From positions 1 through 38,232 of IMG/VR virus record IMGVR_UViG_3300023118_000017: a stretch of DNA of 38,232 nt. The stretch is one strand, 5' to 3'. Source of the DNA: a virus. The notes beneath the pieces are model-generated. The model was not told where the DNA came from. It did no database searches and saw only the letters and a list, made by a program, of their open reading frames with translations. Of this stretch, positions 135 through 30,745 are shown one piece after another; within the stretch, counting starts at the first letter, position 1; each line of letters opens with the position of its first letter. The position numbers and the translations under genes were made by a program.

Positions 135-559
135 GCCGTAAACATGATGCCGCGTTGGTTGCACTGACCGCCGCTCGGATGCCCAACCTGTTCCCTGGCA
201 TCGTTCCTGTTGGGTTTCAGCCTTCGCCGGGTTCTGGTCAGCCGTTCAAGCCGTACGCGGTCTTCTATAGCCAGCCTGGTACTGATCGTCAAACTCGTTT
301 GACTGGTCCCGCCCATGAGCAGAATCCGCGTTGGACGATCCATTGTGTTGGGTCGACTGCGGATCAGGCTGAGTGGGTGAATGAGCAGGTCAAGGGTGCT
401 CTGGTTGTGAATGGTTTCGGTGTGGTGCCGACTATTGCTGGTGAGAATCCTGGCCGGTTCTGGTACTCGAATCCGCAGCCTGTTGCCCGTGATGACGACT
501 CCACACCGCCACTGTTTTTTGTGGTGGCTGAGTGTGGCTTCAGATCCGAATTGATTTGA
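131..559 (+). CDS. Tail terminator protein
   Basis: A 142-residue protein starting at a GTG that overlaps the previous stop (GTGA). Size, position directly before the major tail protein, and an alternating strand/helix pattern with the stretch WTIHCVGSTADQAEWVNEQV fit the tail terminator (lambda gpU / gp17-like) family. That family forms the hexameric ring that stops tail-tube growth and docks the tail to the head. No catalytic motif is expected. Codons favour T and G in third position, like the rest of the structural block. The family is inferred from size and context rather than from a diagnostic motif. Confidence 0.7.
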   Translation: MSRKHDAALVALTAARMPNLFPGIVPVGFQPSPGSGQPFKPYAVFYSQPGTDRQTRLTGPAHEQNPRWTIHCVGSTADQAEWVNEQVKGALVVNGFGVVPTIAGENPGRFWYSNPQPVARDDDSTPPLFFVVAECGFRSELI

Positions 560-28410: not shown

Positions 28411-28619
28411 GTACCAGCACACTCATCAGACCGAGCACGACTGATACCGGCAACGTCGAACTCGATCACGCATATTGCTGCCGTAGATCCGATCGCGCCT
28501 TGTGCGGTGCGGACCTTACAGATGCAACCGACGTGAGCTGGTACGACTCTTTGAATATGTGCGTGGTTTGTGACCTAATCACGGTCTGCCCCGACTGCGG
28601 CGCAAGATTCGAGGACTGA
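28407..28619 (+). CDS. Small zinc-ribbon protein, 70 residues
   Basis: STSTLIRPSTTDTGNVELDH, then CCRRSDRALCG and CVVCDLITVCPDCGARFED. Eight cysteines in four pairs could bind two zinc ions. AAAGGA precedes the ATG. The stop overlaps the initiator gene (TGATG). Probably nucleic-acid binding. It contains GTGACCTA (28569-28576), an exact match to the operator half-site, perhaps by chance. Confidence 0.65.
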   Translation: MSTSTLIRPSTTDTGNVELDHAYCCRRSDRALCGADLTDATDVSWYDSLNMCVVCDLITVCPDCGARFED

Positions 28620-29452
28620 TGCCAAGAATCAGATCAATCAAGCCTGAGTTCTGGCGGTCACCATCCACAGCGAAAGCATCACCCCGTGCACGGCTCCTAT
28701 ATATAGCGATGTGGAACTGGGCGGATGACTACGGTGTAGGCGAATGGACGGTCCGTGAATTGCTCGGTTTTGCGTTCCCAAACGACGAAGACGTAACAAA
28801 CGCGGAATTTCAGTGCTTATGCACGGAAGTTGCAACATGCTTCAACACCGTCTTTTACACGGTCGGTGGGAGGCGTTTTTACTGCATTCCGGCATGGGAT
28901 GACCACCAAAAGAACGAGCGTCGTGCACAGGGCAAGTACCCCCGACCTGATGACCCGGAAGCTGTACCTGATCAGGCATTTACCCGAGCGGCGGAAAAGC
29001 ACGGAAAATCCGTGCAGCCAACCGGAAACACAGCGCCTGGAACAGGGAACAGGGAACAGGGAACAGGGGAACAGGGGAACAGGGGAATGGCTCCGAGGGA
29101 GCCGGACATCGACCTGACCGCATTGTTCGAGGCTGCTTATTCGCACTGGCCCAAGAAGGTGAAACGGGATGAAGCCTTCGACCGGTTCAAAACAGCCTGT
29201 AAACGCGAACAGCCCGAACAACTCGCCCAAGCGATTGCCGACTTCGGTAACGCCTACGCGGCCACCACGGAGAAGCAGTTCATCCCCGCGCTCGGTCCGT
29301 GGATCTATCAGAAGCGATGGACGGACGAACTGCCGACCGCGCAGGGCCGCAAACCGACCCGCACGGAGCAGAACCTGGACTTTGTGCAGCAGCTTGCCAG
29401 GGAGCAAGAACAAAAACAACGAAGTATCGAAGGAGCAACAAATGGACGTTGA
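28619..29452 (+). CDS. Replication initiator / replisome organiser (O-like)
   Basis: A 277-residue protein. The first 105 residues are a winged-helix-type region (IRSIKPEFWRSPSTAKASPR, LLYIAMWNWADDYGVGEW and RRFYCIPAWDDHQKNERRAQ), the standard N-terminus of phage replication initiators. A linker at about 139-157 consists of Gly/Thr/Asn/Arg/Glu/Gln repeats coded by the GGAACAG iterons. The C-terminal region (LTALFEAAYSHWPKKVKRDE, then FIPALGPWIYQKRWTDEL) is DnaD/DnaT-like and should bind the helicase loader. The loader gene follows at 29606. As in lambda O, the origin probably lies inside this gene. Confidence 0.85.
   Translation: MPRIRSIKPEFWRSPSTAKASPRARLLYIAMWNWADDYGVGEWTVRELLGFAFPNDEDVTNAEFQCLCTEVATCFNTVFYTVGGRRFYCIPAWDDHQKNERRAQGKYPRPDDPEAVPDQAFTRAAEKHGKSVQPTGNTAPGTGNREQGTGEQGNRGMAPREPDIDLTALFEAAYSHWPKKVKRDEAFDRFKTACKREQPEQLAQAIADFGNAYAATTEKQFIPALGPWIYQKRWTDELPTAQGRKPTRTEQNLDFVQQLAREQEQKQRSIEGATNGR
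28999..29090 (+). repeat. Candidate origin of replication: 17-bp dyad plus six GGAACAG iterons
   Basis: GCACGGA-AAA-TCCGTGC (28999-29015) is a perfect dyad. GGAACAG starts at 29039, 29046, 29053, 29060, 29068 and 29076 (steps 7, 7, 7, 8, 8), with a degenerate GGAATGG at 29084. All are inside the initiator gene, in its linker-coding segment. Confidence 0.65.
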
Positions 29453-29609
29453 GAAGAAGATCACTGGTTACGAGTTCGACATGGCTGCGGATGCGTTCTA
29501 CGAGCACGCCGAAGATAGTGCGCTCAATGAGCAGGGAAACCGGCGCGAAAAGCTGGCAGCAGCTTTCGCCGCTGCCGGAATCACGGTGGAAGGCATGTCT
29601 GAGGCATGA
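29442..29609 (+). CDS. Small helical protein, 55 residues
   Basis: AAGGAG precedes the ATG, which overlaps the end of the initiator gene by 11 bases. DVEKKITGYEFDMAADAFYE then SALNEQGNRREKLAAAFAAA is helical and amphipathic. It sits between initiator and loader and may help replisome assembly. ATGA overlap with the loader gene. Confidence 0.65.
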   Translation: MDVEKKITGYEFDMAADAFYEHAEDSALNEQGNRREKLAAAFAAAGITVEGMSEA

Positions 29610-30043
29610 ATATCGTCCAGGTGGGTCAGCTGCTCACCATCGCATCCGGATTCGACAGGTTCATTACCGTCGACCGGATCACCACCGAAGCATGGTTCCT
29701 CGTGCTCAAAGATGTCGACTTCGAGGAAGCGAAGGATGCCACGGTCGCGCATTTCATCGGACCGCGGGCTAAGGAAACGTTCGCGGTCAGGCACATCCTC
29801 GAGGCGGTGACTGATAAGGCCAGGTTGTCGCCGGCAGCGATAGAAGTCGATGTGAGATCCGCGAAAGCGAGGCTGCTCATCGACAAGAGTTGGCCGTCAA
29901 ACAAAGTGCTTCCCGAGAACATTCGGGAGGCACTTTTTACACTCCGCGACACCGAGAAACGTGCCGCCGCCCAACGGTTCGCATTTGACGAACTCGAGGG
30001 TGACCCGATCGACCCCGGCGACATCGGAAAGGACGTGCCGTGA
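29606..30043 (+). CDS. Helicase loader, G39P-like
   Basis: A 145-residue protein. IVQVGQLLTIASGFDRFITV, then TEAWFLVLKDVDFEEAKDAT and VAHFIGPRAKETFAV, follow the G39P-type pattern (helical N-terminal domain, L-x5-D-x2-x-EAK, then disordered tail) found in SPP1 and many Gram-positive phages. G39P delivers and inhibits the replicative helicase until the initiator recruits it. The order initiator, small gene, loader fits. The gene contains a terminator-like hairpin at 29903-29938, in codons for the C-terminal tail. Confidence 0.75.
   Translation: MNIVQVGQLLTIASGFDRFITVDRITTEAWFLVLKDVDFEEAKDATVAHFIGPRAKETFAVRHILEAVTDKARLSPAAIEVDVRSAKARLLIDKSWPSNKVLPENIREALFTLRDTEKRAAAQRFAFDELEGDPIDPGDIGKDVP
29903..29938 (+). 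terminator. Terminator-like hairpin inside the helicase-loader gene
   Basis: AAAGTGCTTCCCGA (29903-29916) and TCGGGAGGCACTTT (29923-29936) form a 14-bp stem (one G-T pair) with a 6-nt loop, followed by T residues to 29938. On the minus strand the stem is followed by GTTTG, so it may act in both directions. Confidence 0.65.
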
Positions 30044-30156: not shown

Positions 30157-30371
30157 GCGACGAAACCAAAGACCCGTACATCGGAGAAATCTTCCAGGAC
30201 AAAGACCATCGAAGTAGCAATCGGCGGGTGAAGATCATCGCCTACGACATGGCCAAACAGAAGTACGTCGGACACGAAGTAGATGATCGGGGCAATCCCG
30301 TGCCGTTCCCGAGCACCCGCCGCTACCTCGCCGCGACCCTGAAGAACCGCTACCGGAAGGTGTCCCACTAA
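30153..30371 (+). CDS. Hypothetical protein, 72 residues
   Basis: CAGGAG precedes the ATG. SDETKDPYIGEIFQDKDHRS and VKIIAYDMAKQKYVGHEVDD look like a small beta-barrel, with a basic end (RRYLAATLKNRYRKVS). Proteins with the pattern GxxxxDxDxR followed by VxxxD occur near phage replication genes. It overlaps the SSB-like gene by one base. No known function. Confidence 0.6.
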   Translation: MSDETKDPYIGEIFQDKDHRSSNRRVKIIAYDMAKQKYVGHEVDDRGNPVPFPSTRRYLAATLKNRYRKVSH

Positions 30372-30745
30372 TGGCAAACGACAAGCCGATCAAAGACGGT
30401 GTGTACGGCTACGTGTCCGGCACAGTGGGTCGCAGTTTTCAGCACAAGAACGGGCGCGCGTTCGAACTCGAGGTGAAAGACCCGAAGCAGCAGTACGGCG
30501 ACAAATGGACTGTCTGGGCTGACCTTCCTGTGTCCGAGGGTGACCGCGCATCGGTGAAGGGCTGGTTGGGGATCTCGAAAGAGAACTACACCAAGGACGG
30601 CGAGCAGAAGACCGCGATCCGCCGCAGTGTGAACTCAGCCGAACTTGCCGCACATGAGGCCAATGCGACACCGGCTGCACCCGAGCCTGAGCCGTGGGCG
30701 AGCAGCGGACCGGCGACCACCTACACAGATTCCGCGCCTTTCTAG
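30371..30745 (+). CDS. Single-stranded DNA-binding protein, OB-fold with SSB-type tail
   Basis: A 124-residue protein. Strands VYGYVSGTVGRSFQHKNGRA, FELEVKDPKQ, WTVWADLP and VKGWLGISKENYTKDGEQKT follow an OB-fold, with aromatic residues placed for ssDNA stacking. A Pro/Glu-rich linker ends in TDSAPF, which mimics the DxxPF tip of bacterial SSB proteins that recruits replication partners. It sits in the replication block. Shorter than the chromosomal protein, as in many phages. Confidence 0.75.
   Translation: MANDKPIKDGVYGYVSGTVGRSFQHKNGRAFELEVKDPKQQYGDKWTVWADLPVSEGDRASVKGWLGISKENYTKDGEQKTAIRRSVNSAELAAHEANATPAAPEPEPWASSGPATTYTDSAPF

Follow-up and report, generated by a model that had tools for sequence, protein, structure and literature searches.

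We propose that the segment 28992-29103 of the window (the whole stretch of DNA analysed here, a virus record of 38,232 bases) is a two-element replication origin, in which phased iterons are followed by a purine array for duplex opening and strand capture, with the helicase brought in by the C-domain of the initiator and by a separate loader. We consider this reading probable, and it is very likely that the origin is embedded in the initiator gene. The preliminary description had already placed an origin in the part of the gene that encodes the protein linker, and a layout kept in relatives together with constraint at the DNA level supports this location, as far as sequences can tell. The order of the parts, their phasing, the constraint on the DNA, the covariation of one residue with the sites and the fold of the loader can all be read from the sequence (Table 1).

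Table 1. Features of the proposed origin and the surrounding genes (nucleotide positions in the window)
Feature	Position	Strand	Basis or remark
Initiator gene	28619-29452	+	277 aa; PHROG 2149 match, AlphaFold pLDDT 85
Initiator layout	residues ~1-125; 127-154; ~166-275		winged-helix N-domain; disordered linker; C-domain
Specificity segment, codons 98-104 (K N E R R A Q in the window)	28910-28930	+	residue 100 covaries with third base of upstream sites
Putative weak upstream copy of initiator site, CGGAAAA	28992-28998		alignment of relatives; 10 bp before next site
Putative best initiator site, dyad GCACGGA-AAA-TCCGTGC, core CGGAAAATCCG at 29002-29012	28999-29015		sequence and relatives
Putative degenerate initiator site CGGAAACACAG	29023-29033		alignment of relatives; 21 bp past preceding site
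GGA purine array, six GGAACAG and GGAA at 29084	29039-29087	+	sequence; family evidence
Dyad after array, GGCTCC-GAG-GGAGCC	29089-29103		stem enrichment just after array; missed by the preliminary description
Small ORF, 55 aa	29442-29609		between initiator and loader genes
Putative helicase loader, 145 aa, G39P fold	29606-30043	+	predicted structure

The initiator belongs to PHROG 2149 ('replication initiation protein'), whose profile matches residues 2-252 of 277, i.e. most of the protein, with E 1.6e-51. In the AlphaFold model both the N-domain and the C-domain are confident, and pLDDT drops below 50 at residues 127-154 only, a stretch encoded by the DNA around the array. The Pfam models of phage replication protein O and of RepA_N (PF06970) matched neither the initiator (P0001; E 0.1) nor any of 19 N-domains (E 1), the N-domain sequence gave no significant match in PDB or Pfam, and Foldseek on its own returned none for the models of the initiator and the loader. 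The RepA_N N-domain 4pql tops the aligned entries (Z 7.5, 87 residues, 3.1 A), a Z below 8 that may reflect the common winged-helix arrangement only. The initiator stands outside the Pfam lambda-O and RepA_N families and yet, by analogy, would work like both. Genes upstream of it include those for a DNA methyltransferase and a RusA-like resolvase.

Six GGAACAG units at steps of 7-8 bp had been noticed before in the linker-coding part of the gene, and we find them at 29039-29082: they start at 29039, 29046, 29053, 29060, 29068 and 29076 (steps of 7, 7, 7, 8 and 8 bp), and are followed at 29084 by GGAATGG, a degenerate seventh unit. Dinucleotide shuffling of the window gives an expectation of 0.00 for three-copy arrays, versus four overlapping matches observed. 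Megablast of the bare array against phages gave no match, which is expected from the low-complexity filter.

The array is widespread among relatives. The whole protein found 14 homologs in viral contigs, several with quite different C-domains; 13 carry four to seven exact GGAACAG in the linker and the remaining one (L009) has one GGAACAG plus variant units. A search with the N-domain only, blind to the repeats, returned 80 viral loci and 80 from genomes, the majority of them of actinobacterial or proteobacterial origin, and at least four GGA units are present in the linkers of 124 of the 151 usable genes of the N-domain and whole-protein sets. Free destruction of the repeats in relatives, which the preliminary description had named as evidence against an origin, is thus not observed; many of the 27 genes that fail the strict array rule have variant purine arrays. 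By modal period, 67 genes have 5 bp, 37 have 8, 9 have 7, 9 have 6 and 2 have 4. Since the period varies from 4 to 8 bp between relatives and mixes within arrays, it is the coding-strand GGA purine array that is conserved and not the 7-8 bp period. A further variant is seen in phage Nitzel (gp69; L424:1504-2457), where a GGAT-unit array, GGATAGGGATGAGGATGGGGAT, follows GCGGAAnTTCCGC sites spaced 22 bp. Sites and array also occur in the initiator gene on two circular plasmid records, Rhodococcus plas-2 and Klebsiella pKpnB3_1, and in Actinobacteria and Proteobacteria the layout is shared by related phages and prophages.

When viral contigs were scanned with the DNA pattern alone, at least 120 stretches were returned; among the matches listed, most lie in linkers of genes beginning MxRIR[ST]xKPEF[WF], the others being chiefly 7-bp arrays in unrelated genes. 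GGGAACA heptanucleotide minisatellites were observed in unrelated viral genes of L029, L050, L052, L077, L079, L115, L117, L131 and L135, so a 7-bp array does not by itself identify an origin.

That the repeats are kept for the DNA, as the preliminary description supposed, is borne out by codon choice forced by the DNA and by the use of all three frames. When arrays are compared with the rest of the same genes (163 non-redundant genes), Arg is encoded by AGG in 86% of cases versus 8% elsewhere, Gly by GGC in 0 versus 46%, and Thr by ACA in 96% versus 13%, and GGA units occupy the three frames 399, 365 and 263 times. These two properties rule out a protein-level cause of the repeats. At least five GGA units are present in 177 of 215 genes, versus 2 after synonymous-codon shuffling and none on the antisense strand, in a set that is enriched by loci fetched with the repeat pattern itself. 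The purine fraction is about 0.9 in the array versus 0.5 around it. The data show DNA-level selection on the array.

Right after the array the C-domains switch among relatives. Two C-domain relatives with other N-domains (L298 and L299) are devoid of GGAACAG, L299 having no purine stretch. The few cases available suggest, from sequence comparison, that the array type follows the N-domain type and not the C-domain. In L298:1506-2321 the same C-domain is joined to an N-domain starting ARGRVITPEFW, and an AGAGAA-type purine stretch in the linker replaces GGAACAG.

Upstream of the array lies the dyad that had been described as a perfect 17-bp one. It is present and its arms are perfect, but 14 of the 17 bp are paired (7-bp arms around AAA), and the two weaker copies at 28992 and 29023, the first and third sites of the window, both degenerate, had been missed. 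In the alignment of relatives the form of the site in the class of the window is CGGAAnTTCCG at 21-22 bp spacing. Across the family, autocorrelation in the 90 nt before the array reaches 0.389, 0.365 and 0.345 at lags 11, 22 and 33 versus a background of about 0.25; codons do not account for this periodicity, as neither 11 nor 22 is divisible by three. When site cores were scored as TCGCGA, TCGnCGA, TCA[CG]TGA or TCCGGA, a spacing of 11 bp between consecutive cores was seen in 116 cases. Two adjacent phases modulo 11, counted from the array start, held 193 of 236 cores, and the distance from the last core to the array was mostly 19 or 30 bp, while the cores spread about equally over codon frames (95/87/85). 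Helically spaced putative initiator sites are thereby found inside the initiator gene, as in the lambda-type in-gene origin, and the palindromes upstream of the array, 11 or ~22 bp apart, appear to be what the DNA-binding domain reads.

A link between the protein and these sites is provided by residue 100 (P0001 numbering), which lies within the motif HQ[KR]x[D/E/N/S]. In an alignment of 144 N-domains, 85 of which could be classed as TCG or TCA by crude regular expressions, all 15 members with TCA-type sites have N at residue 100, and 68 of the 70 with TCG-type sites have D or E there. Mutual information with the site class is 0.672 for this column versus 0.349 for the next one. The tree requires five changes. 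Independent pairs that test the residue switch number five when all branches are counted and only two, both agreeing, with strong support, and relatedness inflates the counts and limits a formal test. Loci picked by the protein motif HQ[KRL]INRP alone had TCA sites in 45 of 52 cases (one scored TCG, six unclear), and those picked by EHQ[RK]VS[HK]P (S type) had TCC sites in 25 of 32 and TCG in none, some of these loci being contigs seen already (e.g. L302, L310, L373, L380, L411 and L417). Recognition of adenine by Asn and of the C of a G-C pair by acidic residues is usual in DNA-binding proteins, and the observed pattern (N with TCA, D/E with TCG) is consistent with such chemistry. We propose from these sequence data that residue 100 helps to recognise the third base of each upstream site.

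The same data bear on an alternative, implied by the preliminary description, according to which the GGAACAG units themselves are short-period iterons, i.e. the duplex binding sites of the initiator, and the dyad is secondary. GGAACAG is indeed the most repeated and the most constant sequence of the region and goes with the N-domain type rather than with the C-domain. The N-terminal motif of the family, RIRxxKPEFW (28625-28654 in the window), is nearly invariant while site specificity varies; it could contact a constant sequence and is a candidate contact for the equally constant GGA array. However, it is the upstream sites that change with residue 100, whereas the GGA unit stays constant whether that residue is D, E, N, S or Q, and the array is therefore not read by this residue; moreover, a period of 4-8 bp that mixes within arrays is unlike phased duplex sites. 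We therefore regard this alternative as unlikely, and the GGAACAG repeats appear, on sequence grounds, to be a second origin element, distinct from the upstream initiator sites.

The dyad that follows the array is moderately supported as an origin element by the frequency of stems in relatives. Stems of at least 6 bp just after the array (40-nt window) occur in 36% of genes versus 4-13% in later windows, and in a 45-nt window after the array in 39% versus 10% after synonymous shuffling; their sequences differ between relatives. Further downstream, the proposed G39P-like loader gained support from its predicted fold: the model superposes on SPP1 G39P (1no1) with Z 10.1 and rmsd 1.6 A over 64 of 67 residues, while the next entry has Z 5.3. 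No match of its sequence to known loaders, PDB or Pfam was found, and it is on the fold that the label 'G39P-like' and the putative role in helicase loading stand. On Klebsiella pKpnB3_1 (L421:1501-2941) an initiator of the same N-domain type (HQKINRPS, TCA-type sites, GGAAG array) goes with a different loader, being followed by a gene for a lambda-P-like replication protein. In the window, a 124-aa product of 30371-30745 (+ strand), with no PHROG or Pfam match, ends with DSAPF, which resembles the acidic tip of single-strand-binding proteins.

From this arrangement we infer that the initiator binds, that at the array the duplex is opened and a strand captured, that the helicase is loaded and that replication starts at 28992-29103. 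Winged-helix N-domains would bind the palindromic iterons, which are spaced by one or two turns of the helix (11 or 21-22 bp). The coding-strand GGA purine array, starting in a fixed helical phase after the iterons, would be the place where the duplex is opened and one strand is captured, and the C-domain together with the downstream G39P-fold loader would then bring in and place the helicase. A bolder version is that the GGA array is a new strand-specific opening element, a periodic G+A-rich single-strand (or G-quadruplex) dock replacing the AT-rich unwinding element, that its period (5, 6, 7 or 8 nt) may be set by a single-strand-binding partner (an initiator arm, the C-domain or the host replisome), and that the specificity for iterons is set in the N-domain by a single-residue code. 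We offer it tentatively and give it somewhat less than an even chance.

Easy melting of the array is weak at best. Its AT content, ~38-47% across the family, is near that of the flanks and not AT-rich, and mean stacking is slightly less stable (–1.43 versus –1.50 to –1.57 in the surroundings), with no stacking minimum at the array in the window itself. As the array is barely easier to melt than its flanks, 'unwinding element' is to be taken as an analogy. The GC skew of the window makes no clear turn at 29 kb.

Another function of the array might be to form a coding-strand G-quadruplex, by which the duplex is held open, a polymerase is blocked or expression of the initiator is regulated. In the window the array comprises more than four G runs, each three or four long and set apart by AACA, and a canonical quadruplex motif is found in 16 of 21 7-bp arrays and 37 of 69 8-bp arrays. 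But only 11 of 43 5-bp and 3 of 9 6-bp arrays have it, and the AACA spacer is conserved in 7/8-bp arrays though a quadruplex would not need it. Two-layer quadruplexes in the arrays are possible. The quadruplex is not supported as a general requirement, since 5- and 6-bp arrays are mostly off motif, and is possible in the window; as an account of the array we find it rather unlikely.

The two-element origin proposed here has its closest counterpart in lambda. Lambda O binds the iterons and opens a neighbouring 40-bp tract, with purines almost all on one strand (PMC5043065). In the sequence of lambda ori, four iterons are followed by coding-strand AAAAGAAAAAAGAAAAGA and then by a dyad, all in the middle of gene O. 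In both cases the known or proposed origin lies in the linker-coding part of the initiator gene, the order is iterons, coding-strand purine tract and dyad, and the loader gene is next. Because order and strand match, the GGA array corresponds to the purine-asymmetric tract beside the lambda iterons. GGAACAG had been set against the 18-bp iterons of lambda; the counterparts of the latter are rather the upstream dyads phased by 11/22 bp. The two systems differ in that the lambda tract is A+T-rich while that of the window is G+A-rich with a regular GGA period, lambda iterons are 18 bp long and 20-24 bp apart while sites here are 11/22 bp apart, and lambda combines the O N-domain with loader P while here an N-domain without a Pfam lambda O match is combined with a G39P-like loader.

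Parts of the layout are shared with other systems as well. SPP1 oriL lies in gene 38, with gp39 and gp40 (PMC6316719); like the window, it has direct repeats within the initiator gene and a gene for a loader of G39P fold, and unlike it an AT-rich unwinding element and a second origin, neither of which is seen here. In the RepA_N initiator of pSK41, boxes in the rep linker are bound by the N-domain and the C-domain is host-specific and exchangeable, and in pPR9 the N-domain plus the origin were exchanged (PMC5703833). The three-part protein, the origin in the linker, the binding of its boxes by the N-domain and the exchangeable C-domain are as seen or proposed in the window, whereas no GGA array is mentioned for these initiators in the review (PMC5703833). 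Actinobacteriophage proteins annotated as 'RepA-like' or 'replication initiation protein' (e.g. Charlie gp61, Nitzel gp69) belong to the same protein family as the initiator of the window, and phage Charlie has sites and an array of this kind. For phages Miko and Jeeves, RepA was described as a homologue of plasmid RepA, with an origin suspected upstream of or within repA (PMC7157519).

Sites and array might also be an operator or a partition element in the initiator gene, as winged-helix proteins with phased palindromes include repressors and centromere binders, and the fold search with the initiator model listed many such winged-helix regulators. This seems to us quite improbable: the elements lie ~400 bp inside the gene, their order is that of lambda ori, a loader gene adjoins, and lambda, SPP1 and pSK41 provide precedents for an origin in such a place (PMC5043065, PMC6316719, PMC5703833). 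Strongly disfavoured, to the point of being hardly credible, is a low-complexity linker or slippage minisatellite devoid of DNA function, at most a junction for C-domain exchange. Similar heptanucleotide arrays do occur in unrelated genes and the C-domains do change at this point, but codon choice, use of all frames, strand bias, a phase that is fixed relative to the upstream sites and a presence in nearly all relatives speak against it.

Origins inside initiator genes are already known (lambda, SPP1 oriL, pSK41). In the open-access literature searched we found no description of an origin for initiators of the Charlie/Nitzel type, nor of the period-variable GGA array, the iteron code or the breadth of the family. 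We accordingly file the two-part GGA layout as a new, widespread variant of the in-gene origin. It provides a candidate origin for many phages and prophages whose initiator was annotated without one, including phages of Mycobacterium and Gordonia, prophages of Corynebacterium, Bifidobacterium, Pseudomonas and Stenotrophomonas, and a Klebsiella plasmid. A residue-to-base rule would predict the origins that an initiator recognises, which would be of use for phage and plasmid incompatibility and for replicon building. Finally, the period-variable GGA tract poses the question of how an origin opens at a G-rich tract.
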